From Planctomycetia bacterium (GTDB lineage Bacteria > Planctomycetota > Planctomycetia > Pirellulales > UBA1268), in the NCBI GenBank assembly GCA_014192425.1, contig BJHK01000001.1, positions 190,623-254,622 on the forward strand: a DNA stretch of 64,000 nucleotides. The letters are read 5' to 3'. Below, piece by piece: positions 6,278-53,141 of the stretch (position 1 is the first letter of the stretch; the number at the start of each line of letters is the position of its first letter). The position numbers and the translations under genes were made by a program. The notes below the pieces were generated by a model. The model was given only the letters and a program-made list of their open reading frames with translations. It did no database searches and was not told where the DNA came from.

Positions 6278-7051
6278 TTGAAGCGGGCCATCATCAGCGA
6301 CATCCACGGCAACATCGAGGCCCTGCAGGTGGTTCTCGAGGACATCGACCGCGAGAAGGTCGATGCGGTCTTCTGCCTGGGCGACATCGTCGGCTACGGG
6401 CCGAATCCCTGCGAGTGCGTGAAACTCGTTCGCGACCGGTGCAGTCTCGTCCTGCTCGGCAACCACGACCAGGGCGCGCTCTTCGACCCCGACGGTTTCA
6501 ACGTCGGCGCGGAGCGTGCGATCCGTTGGACGCGTGGTCAGATCGAGGCCCACGACCGGCTGCCGCGAAACTCCAAGGCGATGCTCGCCGACTTCCTCGG
6601 CGAGCTGCCGCGGACGCACGTGGAGGGAGACGTCATGTTCGTCCACGGGTCGGCCCGCCGGCCGCTCGACGAATACGTTTTTCCGGAGGACATCTACAGC
6701 CCCCTGAAGATGGAACTGATCTTCGAACTCATCGGTCGGGTCTGCTTCCAGGGACACACGCACATCCCCGGCGTGTTCACCAACGCCCCCGATTTCATCG
6801 CGCCCGCGGCGGCGAAGGGGGATGCGGCCGAGGTGCGGATCGAACTCGCCGGCGACAAGGCGATGGTCAACGTGGGCTCGGTCGGTCAGCCGCGGGACGG
6901 CGATCCCCGCGCCTGCTACGCCATCGTGGAGGACGAGGCGGCGGTCCGGTTTCGCCGGCTGCAGTATCCGTGGGAAACGACCTGCAAGAAGATTCACGCC
7001 ATCCCGGATCTCGACAACTTCCTCGGCGATCGGCTCGGCCAGGGCCGGTAG
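6278..7051 (+). CDS. Calcineurin-like metallophosphoesterase
   Basis: A predicted 257-residue cytoplasmic phosphoesterase of the YfcE/MJ0936-like group. Metal-binding blocks appear in order: [11 protein letters not shown] at the N-terminus, [26 protein letters not shown] and [11 protein letters not shown], followed by [13 protein letters not shown]. These give the Asp, His and Asn ligands of a di-metal site. The natural substrate cannot be told from sequence. The start chosen is TTG at 6278: it is preceded by an AGAGGGTGG ribosome-binding site, and it places the first metal motif at residue 6, as is usual. The open frame extends upstream to 6206 with no family similarity. The gene ends 69 bp before yidC. 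Confidence 0.9.
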
Positions 7052-47227: not shown

Positions 47228-47281
47228 GCAGCGGTCGGGTGCTGGCGGGCGATTGACCGGCACGTGCTGAGAGCCGTGGTT

Positions 47282-47748
47282 GGCGGTTCGGGGGTGCCCA
47301 CGCCCCGAGCGTCGGACGTTCGCCTCGGCCCTCCAGGCCTCGGCTCTCTGCATGTCCGCTGCGCTTCGCCATCCTGGCTTCGCTTGCTCCCATAGCCCGA
47401 CACTCAGGGCCTGGGCACCCCCTCACGGACTCTACGACGGGTCGATGCTCATTCCCTTTTCCTTGGAGGATGGGGAAACGGAAGGCCCCGGATCGTCGCA
47501 GAGCGACGATCCGGGGCCGCTGATTGATGTCACACGACGACATGCTGTGGCGGTTCGGGGGTGCCCATGCCCCCGAGCGTCGGACGTTCGCCTCGGCCCT
47601 CCAGGCCTCGGTTCTCTGCATGTCCGCTGCGCTTCGCCATCCTGGCTTCGCTTGCTCCCACAGCCCGACACGCAGGGCATGGGCACCCCCTCACGGACCC
47701 TACGACGGGTCGATGCCCACCCCTTTTCCCTGGAGGATGGGGAAACGG
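47282..47748. repeat. Two copies of a 200-bp repeat
   Basis: Positions 47282-47482 and 47549-47748 are the same sequence with few differences, 267 bp apart. Each starts GGCGGTTCGGGGGTGCCCA and ends GGATGGGGAAACGG. Between them lie a hairpin (47484-47518) and about 30 further bases. Neither copy contains a credible gene. They form the left part of the accessory island 47228-50834. Confidence 0.9.
47484..47518. repeat. Perfect 16-bp hairpin between the two 200-bp repeats
   Basis: Arms 47484-47499 and 47503-47518 (GGCCCCGGATCGTCGC and its inverse) around AGA. There is no T-run on either side, so it is not a standard intrinsic terminator, although it could still help end the acnA transcript. Confidence 0.8.
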
Positions 47749-47767
47749 GACGCATCCGCTGTTTTGG

Positions 47768-47837
47768 GTCACTTGGCGGCCGGTAGGCGGCCGCCGAGAA
47801 GGCCGGTCATCGCCGGGGCGGCACCGCCGAAGATGCC
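47768..47837 (-). pseudogene. Fragment matching the 3' end of the MMPL transporter gene
   Basis: About 67 bp is roughly 90% identical to 50834-50903, the end of the MMPL gene, including its stop codon. Translated, it reads GIFGGAAPAMTGLLGGRLPA followed by AK and a stop, against GIFGGAAPAMTGLLGSRLPA and AE in the transporter. It is either the last trace of a second MMPL gene or a duplicated end. It directly follows the integrase remnant on the minus strand. Confidence 0.7.
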
Positions 47838-47920
47838 GGTCGAGGAATTCAAACAGCGCGAGGTTCATGACGCCGCTCGTGCCCGGCTGCGTGGGCTTTC
47901 GCTTCCGGCCGGGCCCGACC

Positions 47921-48073
47921 CAAAGCGATCACGCTTTCGCGGGAGACAGGCAGCGGGCCTTGCGGCGTGTTCGTGCCCTCAGCGCATCGGCGAATCCAGA
48001 TGGAAAACCACTGCTGATCAAACCGCTCAAGCGAGCTTTGCCGCAATCGCTCACAATACTGGTCAACACTCAT
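47921..48073 (-). pseudogene. intI: N-terminal remnant of an integron-type tyrosine recombinase
   Basis: Fifty-one codons from ATG 48073 encode MSVDQYCERLRQSSLERFDQ, then QWFSIWIRRCAEGTNTPQGP and LPVSRESVIA. From memory this matches the start of the SAM-like DNA-binding domain of integron integrases found in planctomycete genomes. After VIA the frame runs into unrelated sequence, and the rest (catalytic Arg, His, Tyr) is missing. It points away from the cassettes, the standard orientation of intI, and a promoter lies 50-80 bp upstream. The family call rests on pattern memory plus the adjoining attC sites. Confidence 0.6.
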
Positions 48074-48128
48074 GCCACACCCCGCACAGCGACGATCACT
48101 CCAGCCTGCGCTCGCCCGTATAGGAACA

Positions 48129-48157
48129 TGTGTACACTCTTTTCCTACCCGCGTCAA
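48129..48157 (-). promoter_or_regulatory. Promoter of the integrase remnant
   Basis: On the minus strand TTGACG (48152-48157) and TACACA (48129-48134) are separated by 17 bases, a good sigma70 -35 with a weak -10. The expected start point is about 50 bases upstream of the integrase ATG at 48073. Confidence 0.5.
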
Positions 48158-48283
48158 GACCCGTCCTTTTCGGGGATGTGTTCGCAGTTGGGTGCCGTGA
48201 ATCTCCGGCCGGCCTCGCTTGACGCCCCCGCCCGGCCGTTGGAATAATTCCGGCAATAACCGTATTCAAGCCGACTCAGTACG

Positions 48284-48303
48284 GCCCAACTAGATTGTTC
48301 GCG
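48284..48303 (+). other. attI-like core site
   Basis: GCCCAAC (48284-48290, fits RYYYAAC) and GTTCGCG (48297-48303) face each other across six bases, the layout of the integrase-binding simple site of attI. The expected crossover is between G 48297 and T 48298. TTCGCG then belongs to cassette 1 and pairs exactly with CGCGAAC at 48599-48605 in that cassette's attC. Confidence 0.55.
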
Positions 48304-48304
48304 G

Positions 48305-48589
48305 GTGGATCCGTCGATGCTTCAGCGATCTATCTGCCCTGTCTGCTGGCGTACATTCGAGGCGGGCGAAATTCAGGTCGAATGGCCAACTTGCCCCGAC
48401 TGTTGCAGCGAAGCTGTAGAGGTCGAAGTCTTGCCGTTCGACGATTTTGTTCGATCAAAGAGCATTGCGGATTTACAAGAGGCAGTTCGTTCGTGGCAAG
48501 ACAAGGGAGAGCTGCGAGAGTCGTTCCGGAAGACGGTCGTGAAGAGAATTCGCAGTGTGATCGAAGTTAAGCGAGAAGCCAAGGTCTAG
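48305..48589 (+). CDS. Cassette 1: small zinc-ribbon-like protein
   Basis: A 94-residue protein of unknown function. The N-terminus has CPVCWRTF and CPDCC, two Cys pairs 21 residues apart that could bind zinc as a ribbon. The rest is a charged helical region (FDDFVRSKSIADLQEAVRSW, then FRKTVVKRIRSVIEVKREAK). GTG 48305 lies only seven bases after the presumed attI crossover; ATG 48317 is the other possible start and omits four residues. No ribosome-binding site is seen for either. Base composition is visibly lower in GC than in the core genes, as expected for a captured cassette. Confidence 0.65.
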   Translation: MDPSMLQRSICPVCWRTFEAGEIQVEWPTCPDCCSEAVEVEVLPFDDFVRSKSIADLQEAVRSWQDKGELRESFRKTVVKRIRSVIEVKREAKV

Positions 48590-48598
48590 CCGCCTCGC

Positions 48599-48695
48599 CG
48601 CGAACAAGTCGCTGCACCCAACGGCGGCCGCATGCCGGCTTTTCGGAGTTCGCTCTCCCACCAGCGGCCGCCGTGGGTGAGCTCGACCGTTCGGC
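48599..48695 (+). other. attC site of cassette 1 (97 bp)
   Basis: R'' CGCGAAC (48599-48605) and R' GTTCGGC (48689-48695) bound an imperfect inverted repeat. Arms GTCGCTGCACCC..ACGGCGGCC (from 48608) and its inverse (48664-48687) pair except for a few unpaired bases on one side, as in attC bottom-strand folding. The loop is about 32 bases. The adjoining stop codon of cassette 1 ends at 48589. Confidence 0.75.
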
Positions 48696-48720
48696 AGCGG
48701 CGGTATCAGGAGTGCGTGCG

Positions 48721-49101
48721 ATGCGGCTGATGACCGTCTTGTCGCTCCTCATCAACGTGGCCGTTCTTGTGCCGGTGTGTGCCGGTCTGCTGTCGAACGC
48801 TTCGTGGACGACGTCGGCGTATGGCGAGGCTACGCCGGCCCGTGCCATCCTGCTATCGGTCTACATGGCGATCGGGCTCTGCTCAGGGCTGTTGCTGATC
48901 CGCCGCGAGCCGAAGGCGGTCGCGGCGTTGCTGCTCGTGCAGGTGTTGTACAAGGTCACGACGCCGCTGACGGTCGGGACGGTCACCAACCCGGTGGTGG
49001 CAAGCAACCTGATCGTCGCCGTGGTCCATACGGCCACCTTGGTTTGCCTATGGTCGGGCGGGGCACTGGGCGAATCGACCGATGATCGGCCGGCAGGGTG
49101 A
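48721..49101 (+). CDS. Cassette 2: small integral membrane protein
   Basis: A 126-residue protein with about four membrane helices: MTVLSLLINVAVLVPVCAGL, ARAILLSVYMAIGLCSGLLL, KAVAALLLVQVLYKVT and NPVVASNLIVAVVHTATLVC. An Asn/Ser/Thr-rich loop lies between helices 1 and 2. I do not recognise the family. AGGAG lies eight bases before ATG 48721; a GTG at 48673 is in frame but falls inside the attC site of cassette 1, so it is rejected. The stop is 11 bp before the attC of this cassette, typical cassette packing. Confidence 0.75.
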   Translation: MRLMTVLSLLINVAVLVPVCAGLLSNASWTTSAYGEATPARAILLSVYMAIGLCSGLLLIRREPKAVAALLLVQVLYKVTTPLTVGTVTNPVVASNLIVAVVHTATLVCLWSGGALGESTDDRPAG

Positions 49102-49111
49102 GGCTCAAGAC

Positions 49112-49209
49112 GGCGAACCAGCCGCTGCAGCAAACGGCGGGGACGGGTAGCGATGTTCAGAGTGCATAGCTCACTCGGCCCCCGCCGCTGCTCGGCTCTT
49201 TCGTTCGGC
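49112..49209 (+). other. attC site of cassette 2 (98 bp)
   Basis: R'' GGCGAAC (49112-49118) and R' GTTCGGC (49203-49209). Arms starting AGCCG at 49120 and the inverse at 49180-49197 share the stems AGCCG/CGGCT, GCAGC/GCTGC and GGCGGGG/CCCCGCC. They are separated by unpaired CT and AAA on one side, the extrahelical-base pattern of attC. The loop is about 37 bases. Confidence 0.78.
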
Positions 49210-49287
49210 CACTACGCTGACGTCTTCGTGTGATTGCCGCCCGGTATGATGAGCGGGGGCTTCTTCCAACTGCGGAGGACATCATCA

Positions 49288-49509
49288 ATGAGCCTGTCCT
49301 TATCGCAATTTGGCATCGACCGCCTCGACGCACAGCAGCGGGTGGAGTTGATCGGTCTGATATGGGACAGCCTTCCCGACGATGCGCCATACACACCTCC
49401 CGACTGGCATATCCAAGAACTAGACCGGCGAATTGCAGCCGCTGATGCCAATCCTGGGGCCGCTGAACCTTGGGAGACGGTGCTGGCGCGATTGTCGAGG
49501 AGTTCATGA
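49288..49509 (+). CDS. Cassette 3: addiction-module antitoxin
   Basis: A 73-residue protein fitting the family of small addiction module proteins paired with RelE/ParE toxins: LSQFGIDRLDAQQRVELIGL, IWDSLPDDAPYTPPDWHIQE, LDRRIAAADANPGAAEPWET and VLARLSRSS. GGAGGAC precedes ATG 49288 with good spacing. The usual role is neutralising the toxin encoded next. Its stop overlaps the toxin start (ATGA). Because the toxin gene is truncated, the module is probably no longer addictive, unless the antitoxin counters a toxin elsewhere. Confidence 0.8.
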   Translation: MSLSLSQFGIDRLDAQQRVELIGLIWDSLPDDAPYTPPDWHIQELDRRIAAADANPGAAEPWETVLARLSRSS

Positions 49510-49589
49510 GTTTGCCCGTCGTCCTGCGTCCGGAGGCCACGAAGGACGCGGCCGAGGCGATTGATTACTTTGGTCCAGGGAAACCGTGA
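49506..49589 (+). pseudogene. Cassette 3: truncated ParE/RelE-type toxin
   Basis: Twenty-seven codons encode MSLPVVLRPEATKDAAEAID followed by YFGPGKP and a stop. The beginning matches the first strand and helix of ParE-family toxins, which run to about 100 residues, so about three quarters of the gene is missing. The attC site of the cassette starts 41 bp after the stop, so the deletion predates or preserved the cassette end. Confidence 0.75.
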
Positions 49590-49629
49590 CGCTGCTGTGT
49601 GGCAGAGCCGCGAGTGAGAGCCCGCGCAG

Positions 49630-49725
49630 GCCGAACGAAGCGATGCAGCAGACTCGCGATAAATGATAAATTCGGTCGGTGTGGATAATCCCTTGGCCGC
49701 GAGCCGCTGATTGCCGCCGTTCGGC
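49630..49725 (+). other. attC site of cassette 3 (96 bp)
   Basis: R'' GCCGAAC (49630-49636) is an exact inverse of R' GTTCGGC (49719-49725) and of the cassette 3 start. Left arm GCGATGCAGCAGACTCGCG and right arm CGCGAGCCGCTGATTGCC pair through CTCGCG/CGCGAG and CAGC/GCTG with unpaired bases between. The loop is about 39 bases. Maturase sequence begins only 16 bp after this site. Confidence 0.75.
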
Positions 49726-49741
49726 TCTCAGTCCGCGATCC

Positions 49742-50089
49742 GGCAAGTACTTCACCAGCTGCGTGCCGGCGATGAGCCGGAATGCGATGAAGGAAATTGC
49801 ACGAACCGTTCGCGGGTGGCGGCTGCACATGGCCAGCGATAAGGAGTTGGCAGATCTCTCGCGAATGTTCGATAAGCGCATTCGTGGCTGGGTGAACGAT
49901 TACGGTCGCGACTATCCGTCAGCTCTTCATCGCACCTTCGACTGCATCAACAGGCGACAGGTGCGGTGGGGCATGAAGAAATGCAAGCGATTTCGCGGCC
50001 ACCATCGACTGGCGACGCAATGGCTTCGTCGGATCGCACAGGAGCAGCCCAGGCTGTCCGCGCACTGGGGACTCGGATTTGTGCCGTAA
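49742..50089 (+). pseudogene. Group II intron maturase, C-terminal fragment
   Basis: The frame encodes the last 115 residues of a group II intron reverse transcriptase/maturase: GKYFTSCVPAMSRNAMKEIA, then TVRGWRLHMASDKELADLSR, RIRGWVNDYGRDYPSALHRT, RQVRWGMKKCKRFRGHHRLA and AQEQPRLSAHWGLGFVP. This is the maturase (X) and DNA-binding end. The reverse transcriptase domains and the intron 5' end are absent. The fragment begins 16 bp after the third attC site, so the truncation point sits at a cassette boundary. Confidence 0.9.
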
Positions 50090-50105
50090 GGCGATGGGAT
50101 GATAG

Positions 50106-50176
50106 GAGCCGGATGAGTGGAGACGCTCACGTCCGATTCTGGCAGACCGCGGGGATGCAACTCCCCCGCGCTACTC
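50106..50176 (+). ncRNA. Group II intron domains V and VI
   Basis: Domain V is at 50106-50141: GAGCCGGATGAG opens the stem with the AGC triad, GAGTG and CGCTC pair around GAGA, CG is the two-base bulge, and TCCGATTC closes it. Domain VI follows (stem CGCGGGG/CTCCCCCGCG at about 50148-50170). The 3' splice end falls near 50176. This fixes the right end of the intron relic. Confidence 0.8.
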
Positions 50177-50231
50177 CACTTCCGGTGTATCGGCAGCGGG
50201 ACCTGTCTGCATCCTGCGGCTCGACGCTGAT

Positions 50232-50389
50232 GAAGGGGTGGCCGTGGGCCGGAAGAACTGGATGTTTATCGGCAGCGTCGCTGCGGGCTACCGCGCCGCG
50301 GACCTGATGTCGCTCGTGAGCAGCGCCGCTCCCGGGCAGACGCCAAGGCGGTCAAGCGGGCCCGGCGACGCATCGCGAGCAGGGGCTGA
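50232..50389 (+). pseudogene. IS66-family transposase C-terminal fragment with internal deletion
   Basis: EGVAVGRKNWMFIGSVAAGY and RAADLMSLVSSA match the conserved C-terminal block of IS66 transposases. After SSA a different frame continues RADAKAVKRARRRIASRG and a stop (50387-50389), which matches the family's extreme C-terminus. The segment between has been deleted with a frameshift. No IS66 ends or orfs A and B are present. Confidence 0.75.
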
Positions 50390-50825: not shown

Positions 50826-50834
50826 TGACCGACG

Positions 50835-53141
50835 TCACTCGGCGGCCGGGAGGCGGCTGCCAAGGAGGCCGGTCATCGCCGGGGCCGCACCGCCGAAGAT
50901 GCCGTCGCGGAACGAGGGACGGCGTCGTCGAATCACGCTCTCCGTCACCACCAGCAGCGCCGGCAGGAAGACGAGCTCGGCGAGCGTGGCGGCCGCCACC
51001 GCACCGCAGGCGAGAAGCCCGAAGCCGGCCAGCGACGGCACGCTGCTCGCCGTCACCGCCGTGAACCCGACCGCCAGCACCACGCCACCGATCACCACCG
51101 CGTTGCCCGTCTCCGCGATCGCCCGACGCACCGACGTGGCGATCGACAGGCCGGCCCGCCGGTTGCGGGCCAGCGCCGAGAGCACGTGCACCGTGTCGTC
51201 CACCGCCAGCCCGAGACAGACGTTGAACACGATCACCGTGGCCGGATCGAGGGACCGGCCGGTGGCCTGGAGGATGGCGGCGATGACCGTCAGCGGGAAG
51301 ACGTTGGGCACGAGGCTCACCAGCCCCGCCACCGGCGAGCGGAAGGCGCTGGCGAGGATCGCGCCGATCACGCAGACCTCGAGGAGCAGGCTCGAGCCGA
51401 GGTCGCGGACGAGCTGGCGGATGTTGCGGGCCGACACCACCGACATGCCGGCGAGCTCGAACCGCCAGCCCGGATGCCGGGCGGCAAGGTCCTCGAGCGC
51501 CGCGTCGATCCGGCCGTAGGCGGCGTCGAGGTTTCGCGAGCCCCGGTCCGCCACCCGAGCCCGCACCACCGCCGCCCGCTCGCCGGGGGCGACGAGGTCG
51601 CGAAACTGCTCGGCATCGAGCCGGCGCCGGGCCCGGTCGCCGAGATCGCCGGCGATATTCGACAGCGAGACCGCGTGGGAGATGCCGGCGGCGGAGTCGA
51701 GGATGCCGTGCACTTCTCCGAGGGCGTTCGTCACCGTGGGCTCGCGCCAGTCGATGCCTTCCGGCCAGCGGACCAAGACGTCCACCCCGAGCGCCCCGCC
51801 AAACTCCGCATCGACGCGGGCCAGGGCCCGGGCCGCCGGTGCCCCGCGCGGCAGCGAATCGACGACCCGGTTGTCGGCGTCGAGGCCGAGCCCGGCGAGG
51901 CCGAGGAGGAGCGTTGCCGCACAGCCGAGGGCCGCGACCGGCCGGGCATGGCGAACGGAAAACGCCGCCAGGGCATTGGCCAGCCGGCCGGCGCGGCGGG
52001 ACGACCGTCCCAGCCGCATGCCGCTGCAGAACCGGGTCGAGGCGATCAGCGGCGTGAGCAGCGTGACGGCGAGAAAGCTCGCCAGCGCCCCCACCGCGGC
52101 GGCGATCCCGAAGGTCCGGACGGCGTCGATCCGGGCCGCCGCCAGCGAGGCGAAGCCGACGGCGGTAACGAGGCTGGTGAGCCCGCAGGCCGTCCCCACG
52201 CGCCGGACAGCGGCTGTCGAGGCGGCGAACGGGTCGATGCCGCGGCGTGCGCTGCGCCGCATGTCCTCGATGAAGTGGATCGAGTCGCAGGTGCCGACGA
52301 CGAGCGCCAGCGAGGGGACCACGCTGGTGAGAATGTTGACCGGCGCGCCGCACAGCCCGAGCGCGCCCAGCGCCCAGACGGCGCCCACGAACGGGGGCAC
52401 GCAGGCCACGACCGTCGACCGCAGGCTGCGGGCCACCACGGCCGAGAGGATCACCGCCAGCGACAGGCCGAGCGAGTTGAAGACGAGCATGTCGCGCCGC
52501 AGCGCCCGCGCGGCCTGCTCGCGGAGCGCCGGCAGGCCGGTGAGCTCGAGGTCGATCGCCGCGGACCCGCCGGTGCGGGACGCGAGCGCCTCCTCCAGCC
52601 GGGTGACCGTCGCCGCGAGCCGCGGGGGGCGGTCGGCCGCGGGCGTAAGACGGACGAGCAGCAGCGCGACGGTGGCGTCGGCGGTGAGCAAGTGCCCGGC
52701 GACGAGGGGGTGCCGCAGCGCCCGCTCCCGGGCAGCCTCACGCGCGTCGTCGTCGAGGGCCGTCGCCGACCGGGGGATCACGGGGAGCAGGGCGCCGGCC
52801 GCACCGCTGCGCCGCACGTCGAAGATCGACCGCACCGTCTCCACGCCCTCGACCGCCGCCAGCGCGGTGACGACGTCGCGCAGCTCTTCGAGCGCCGGCT
52901 CGGTGAACAGGTCGCCGGAGCGGGCTCGGGCGAGCACGATGCAGTCGCGATCGGGGGTGCCGAACAGGGCCGCCACCTCGTCCACGAGGCGGAAGTCTCC
53001 GCGCACGTCGCGGACGAGCGACCGCAGGTCATCGTCGAACCGCAGCCGGGAGAGGCCGGCGACCGCCAGGCCGCTGAGGGCGATCACCGCCAGCCAGGCC
53101 AGCCTGCGGCCGGCCCGCGGCGGCCATCGAGCGTCAGACAT
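50835..53141 (-). CDS. MMPL/RND-superfamily membrane transporter
   Basis: A 768-residue transporter of the MMPL/HpnN type, the RND relatives that move lipids or hydrophobic compounds. A first helix (LAWLAVIALSGLAVAGL) precedes a periplasmic domain, then a five- to six-helix block (NSLGLSLAVILSAVVARSLR, VVPSLALVVGTCDSIHFIED with the conserved GxxxDxxH-like motif). The pattern repeats in the second half (VNVFPLTVIAAILQA-like, FNVCLGLAVDDTVHVLSALA). Both halves keep the conserved Asp in helix 4. Its ATG overlaps the SET gene stop by one base (TGATG), so the two are coupled. Cargo is unknown; with lipid A genes nearby, a lipid role is plausible. Confidence 0.9.
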   Translation of the reverse strand: MSDARWPPRAGRRLAWLAVIALSGLAVAGLSRLRFDDDLRSLVRDVRGDFRLVDEVAALFGTPDRDCIVLARARSGDLFTEPALEELRDVVTALAAVEGVETVRSIFDVRRSGAAGALLPVIPRSATALDDDAREAARERALRHPLVAGHLLTADATVALLLVRLTPAADRPPRLAATVTRLEEALASRTGGSAAIDLELTGLPALREQAARALRRDMLVFNSLGLSLAVILSAVVARSLRSTVVACVPPFVGAVWALGALGLCGAPVNILTSVVPSLALVVGTCDSIHFIEDMRRSARRGIDPFAASTAAVRRVGTACGLTSLVTAVGFASLAAARIDAVRTFGIAAAVGALASFLAVTLLTPLIASTRFCSGMRLGRSSRRAGRLANALAAFSVRHARPVAALGCAATLLLGLAGLGLDADNRVVDSLPRGAPAARALARVDAEFGGALGVDVLVRWPEGIDWREPTVTNALGEVHGILDSAAGISHAVSLSNIAGDLGDRARRRLDAEQFRDLVAPGERAAVVRARVADRGSRNLDAAYGRIDAALEDLAARHPGWRFELAGMSVVSARNIRQLVRDLGSSLLLEVCVIGAILASAFRSPVAGLVSLVPNVFPLTVIAAILQATGRSLDPATVIVFNVCLGLAVDDTVHVLSALARNRRAGLSIATSVRRAIAETGNAVVIGGVVLAVGFTAVTASSVPSLAGFGLLACGAVAAATLAELVFLPALLVVTESVIRRRRPSFRDGIFGGAAPAMTGLLGSRLPAAE

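Follow-up and report, generated by a model that had tools for sequence, protein, structure and literature searches.

Integrons capture gene cassettes at an attI site through an integrase, IntI, which acts on the folded bottom strand of the attC site carried by the cassette, with the crossover at G^TT. The occurrence of integrons in planctomycetes, which an initial annotation of the DNA analysed here had mentioned, is established in the literature (PMC2426708, PMC3108266, PMC8352920): the first of these papers lists the phylum, the second lists the intI of Rhodopirellula baltica and the third contains a phylum-specific attC model. Clusters of attC sites without an integrase have also been published, and a CALIN is defined as two or more attC sites spaced by less than 4 kb, with no intI nearby (PMC9668308, PMC7923331). 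Group IIC-attC introns insert in the bottom strand of attC, usually opposite to cassette orientation, and a truncated group II intron lies near a toxin–antitoxin cassette with a broken toxin in a CALIN of Halorhodospira halochloris (PMC7923331).

The window (the whole stretch of 64,000 nucleotides that was analysed, taken from an assembly that is fragmented into 70 contigs) contains at 47921–49725 what is almost certainly a sedentary chromosomal integron in decay, comprising an N-terminal remnant of intI, attI, and three cassettes with attC sites (Table 1). The layout is the canonical divergent one, in which the intI remnant points away from attI and the three gene cassettes, each with a terminal attC. 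As in the chromosomal integrons of Planctomycetes such as R. baltica, a long-N IntI diverges from the array, and the attC sites belong to the same structural family and are matched by the same model; unlike those integrons, the locus keeps no more than 51 codons of the integrase and three cassettes. It resembles a CALIN in that several attC sites are spaced by less than 4 kb and have no functional integrase beside them, but its platform (the intI start, the cassette promoter Pc and attI) is still recognizable. The decayed integron with three self-consistent cassettes that the initial annotation had proposed is supported by the attC model, the IntI alignment, the R'' statistics and the sharing of cassettes with other arrays. 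That annotation had not noted the conserved attI, a further relict platform and full-length integrases in the genome, the recurrence of cassettes in a different genus, the 185-bp loss from the toxin gene, or the group II intron and IS66 scraps behind attC3. The element type is well known; what is unusual is that one genome contains two fossil platforms that are paralogues, and that an intact integron from another genus has some of the same cassettes.

Table 1 Features assigned to the putative relict integron and its surroundings, in window coordinates
Feature	Position	Strand	Details
Partial copy of RND-type transporter gene 3' end	47768–47847		80 bp, repeat of 50834–50912
intI remnant	47921–48073	−	codons 1–51 of a long-N integron integrase; remainder deleted or frameshifted
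Putative cassette promoter Pc	48219–48248	+	TTGACG-18-AATAAT
attI region	48261–48300	+	crossover G^TTC at 48297/48298
Cassette 1	48298–48689	+	94-aa ORF at 48305–48589, CxxC motifs
attC1	48599–48695	−	97 bp; model 40.4 bits, 4.5e-10; 0 non-standard pairs marked among 14 model pairs
Cassette 2	48690–49203	+	126-aa predicted membrane protein at 48721–49101
attC2	49112–49209	−	98 bp; model 39.4 bits, 8.8e-10
Cassette 3	49204–49719	+	toxin–antitoxin cassette, toxin gene broken
Antitoxin gene, intact	49288–49509	+	PF09720 Unstab_antitox 5.3e-14 / TIGR02574 9.5e-12 (in that order)
ParE-like toxin gene 5' remnant	49506–49589	+	deletion junction ~49570/49571
attC3	49630–49725	−	96 bp; model 81.5 bits, 5.6e-23
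Group II intron 3' fragment	49736–50179	+	maturase C-terminus to 50089; domains 5 and 6 at 50104–50179
IS66 transposase remnant	50238–50327	+	NF033517 7.7e-5

The intI remnant encodes 51 residues beginning MSVDQY. Its closest match is the 498-residue full-length integrase of a genome from the same genus (L029/L106), with which it aligns from residue 1 at 63% identity; 10 further planctomycete loci, Neorhodopirellula pilleata among them, give 31–45% identity. The IntI comparison that had been proposed as a check on the remnant therefore finds it collinear with full-length planctomycete IntIs from the first residue onwards. The 498-residue integrase has phage-integrase catalytic and SAM-like domains and scores 407 bits against TIGR02249. 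A TIGR02249 search of the window's own genome detected no catalytic domain in the integron block, and the remnant has no match in Pfam or NCBIfam because this N-terminal extension lies outside those models. With its integrase domain lost, the platform cannot recombine alone. Weak matches to the remnant in genomes G013 and G133 were rejected as chance matches inside unrelated genes, and no IntI relatives were found in viral contigs.

A single promoter-like match is present in 47900–49800, and its orientation towards the cassettes suggests that it would be the cassette promoter. It aligns with TTGACA-N18-AATAAT in a second relict on contig C4 of the same genome and with a TTGACA-based site in genome G311. 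The initial annotation had placed an intI N-terminal remnant with a promoter divergently upstream of the cassettes; the remnant is confirmed by its alignment and the promoter-like site faces the cassettes, but the promoter scan of 47900–49800 found no consensus promoter for the integrase. The attI core of the window, ACTCAGTACGGCCCAACTAGATTG^TTC, aligns with those of C4, G311 and G301, with which it has the conserved consensus AAYTAGATTG^TTC in common.

The second decayed platform, on C4, retains an intI N-terminal remnant with an in-frame stop, together with the region of the promoter and attI and a pair of attC sites. Over 317 bp the C4 block has 90.5% identity to that of the window, and this similarity breaks off precisely at the attI crossover, at window position 48300; the C4 cassettes are unlike those of the window. 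The C4 platform has also been broken differently, by the in-frame stop plus a later loss. The two are a paired fossil, paralogous platforms in one genome that are alike up to attI and have different cassettes, which allows the duplication and decay of platforms and their possible mobilization in trans to be studied.

Downstream of both intI remnants, 47835–47897 and a stretch at ~6940–7040 of locus L015 are 76% identical in DNA over 66 bp, with the translation GPGRxRK...FEFLDR; an origin from an IS91 transposase was considered for this sequence and dropped, as it matches no family. A TGTAC or TGTACA motif occurs upstream of several intI genes (window ~48127, L015 ~6300, and L019, L023, L024, L027, L028, L030 and L031). 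Its interpretation as a LexA-like operator was abandoned because no such motif precedes the lexA gene of this genome.

The initial annotation had suggested a covariance-model search as a check on the three attC sites. The model used here, built for this analysis and distinct from the published one, was derived from 28 attC sites, all from other genomes and all from arrays beside the full-length integrases of relatives; the profile behind an initial list of candidates had included the window sites, and the final model contains none of them. Its consensus has 14 pairs, 12 of which show compensatory changes among the relatives, with both sides altered and the pair kept. In the window the model matches exactly the three claimed sites, all on the bottom strand, and the next best place scores 15.7 bits; there is no match in 100 kb of control loci. 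The model also matches sites beside IntI in R. baltica, Planctomycetes bacterium K23_9 and N. pilleata with scores of 20 to 52 bits, a range into which attC1 and attC2, both more divergent than attC3, also fall. A 97-bp attC at L042 13628–13724 resembles attC2.

All three sites end in the box GTTCGGC (48689, 49203 and 49719), and their R'' boxes are CGCGAAC (48599), GGCGAAC (49112) and GCCGAAC (49630). These coordinates and boxes reproduce the earlier description of sites of 97, 98 and 96 bp with an identical end. The imperfect inverted repeats with extrahelical bases described at the same time are borne out by folding, in which each of the three bottom strands forms one long hairpin with bulged bases. 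Folding energy was set aside as a sole test for attC, because shuffled windows give hairpins of similar energy in this GC-rich DNA.

The R'' box complements the start of its own cassette at 7/7, 6/7 and 7/7 positions in cassettes 1, 2 and 3 (cassette 1 starts with GTTCGCG at 48297), the values first reported. We assessed this relation in 48 consecutive cassettes drawn from the window's genome and from relatives. On average, 3.63 of the 4 variable R'' positions match the complement of the bases that open the same cassette, compared with 2.10 for shuffled pairings; the match is exact in 33 of the 48 cassettes, where shuffles predict 5.9, and none of 20,000 shuffles reaches the observed value. 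The initial argument that such a match is no coincidence thus extends well beyond the three cassettes from which it was drawn, and describes a general property here. Contig C23 has a pair of attC-like sites that are very short, with lengths of 51 and 49 bp (L084 419–469 and 688–736), and both obey the R'' rule exactly.

The 94-residue protein of cassette 1 has no family match above cut-off and no homologue in 60 relatives. The other two cassettes recur in an intact integron of genome G320, from another genus. Cassette 2 is 89.5% identical in DNA to its G320 counterpart over 420 bp, and a different attC follows in G320; the encoded protein is 90% identical in G320 and 76% identical in G298. Cassette 3 is 91.3% identical to the G320 copy over 389 bp, with a 185-bp deletion in the window copy, beyond which homology resumes. 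The deletion lies inside the toxin gene and breaks it, whereas the intact G320 toxin gene matches PF05016 (1.7e-5). In G320 several kilobases separate the two cassettes and their order is opposite to that in the window; homology breaks close to the core sites. Judged from these alignments, cassettes 2 and 3 have been mobile units common to different arrays. Cassette sharing is thereby documented between genera of one planctomycete family, with homology breaks near predicted core sites.

By analogy with known integrons, the cassettes would have entered at attI through IntI recombining the folded attC bottom strand, with crossover at G^TTRRRY, and once captured would have been expressed from Pc. 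Later, the catalytic domain of the integrase and a portion of the cassette 3 toxin gene would have disappeared from the platform, and a fragment of a group II intron and scraps of insertion sequences would have ended up behind attC3. Wherever the sequence could test the integron mechanism, it is matched by the anatomy of the locus, by the sharing of cassettes and by the R'' rule.

A chance origin of the array is excluded by the covariance-model matches, the R''/start statistics and the recurrence of cassettes 2 and 3 in an intact integron. Similar observations bear on the idea that unrelated inverted repeats, such as REP-like elements or terminators behind small genes, mimic attC. Hairpins of similar energy do arise by chance in this GC-rich window, but the specificity of the covariance model, the R''/start relation and the sharing of mobile cassettes with breaks near the cores give this idea a negligible probability. 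Nothing that we found argues against the identification as an integron.

The state and history of that integron could still be read in other ways. A CALIN that formed away from any platform, with an integrase-like fragment present by chance, would fit both the lack of a functional intI in the window and the failure of the integrase HMM search to pick up the remnant. Such an origin is highly improbable, given that the remnant, promoter and attI stand in the canonical divergent arrangement, that the remnant aligns from its first residue with true IntIs beside arrays, that the same 317-bp intI–attI block occurs at the C4 cassette array and stops there at the attI crossover, and that a related block is present in G311. 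The integron might instead be active still, its integrase only seemingly broken through an assembly error, since the assembly is in fragments and seems to be interrupted by integrons, both full-length intI genes being located at contig ends. That the paralogous C4 platform is broken too, in a different way, and that the deletion in the toxin gene is clean make an error of this kind extremely improbable.

Beyond the decayed integron of the window, TIGR02249, with which the full-length integrases of relatives were located, has matches in 20 of 60 genomes of relatives. The window's own genome encodes two full-length integrases, one on contig C22 and one on C10, both close to the end of their contig. 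The covariance model used for the window also detects about 36 attC-like sites in this genome (~30 beyond those of the window) on C23, C2, C25, C11, C4, C28 and other contigs, in a list for which 150 of 5,332 candidates were scored and which does not include attC1, although a direct search finds that site. Many attC arrays end near contig ends, and population heterogeneity at the arrays would explain these breaks. C22 (L009 1–19) and C10 (L010 1–20) both start with CAGAAC, the reverse complement of GTTCTG; on C22 this motif lies upstream of intI in surroundings that resemble attI, as though the contig had been interrupted at the insertion point.

Because the attC sites of the window are still well formed, the C22 and C10 integrases could in principle move its cassettes in trans, and rescue by either of them is possible. 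A broader proposal, which we make tentatively and consider rather doubtful, is that the genus keeps several platforms with two integrase types and one attC family, and that relicts stay in a common cassette pool on which intact integrases act in trans. If correct, this would amount to a multi-platform cassette economy instead of a single integron per chromosome.

The 5'-truncated group II intron begins ~10 bases past the end of attC3 and lies in cassette orientation. It matches PF08388 (GIIM, 5.6e-9) and scores 38.5 bits for Intron_gpII, which is slightly under the gathering score of 40. Among annotated relatives in plasmids, the closest to the maturase fragment are rhizobial intron maturases, with 53% identity. 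No intact copy of the intron was found in this genome by DNA search or in the relatives by protein search at 1e-10. Like the intron in the H. halochloris CALIN, it is represented by its 3' part alone and is near a toxin–antitoxin cassette with a broken toxin; unlike that intron, which is inside a cassette, the window fragment abuts the last attC core.

The integron block is flanked by an 80-bp direct repeat of 90% identity, and an RND-type transporter gene ends in the right copy, which forms its 3' end; the repeat may be a trace of the insertion or duplication of the block. A syntenic empty site was sought in 19 other genomes of the genus, and the aconitase gene was not found within flanks of up to 1.5 kb of the transporter. 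Of the 22 genus genomes searched, 20 carry the transporter gene itself, counting this genome. A further direct repeat of 202 bp (47281–47482 and 47548–47749, 94.6% identity) is located in the interval from the aconitase gene to the integron.
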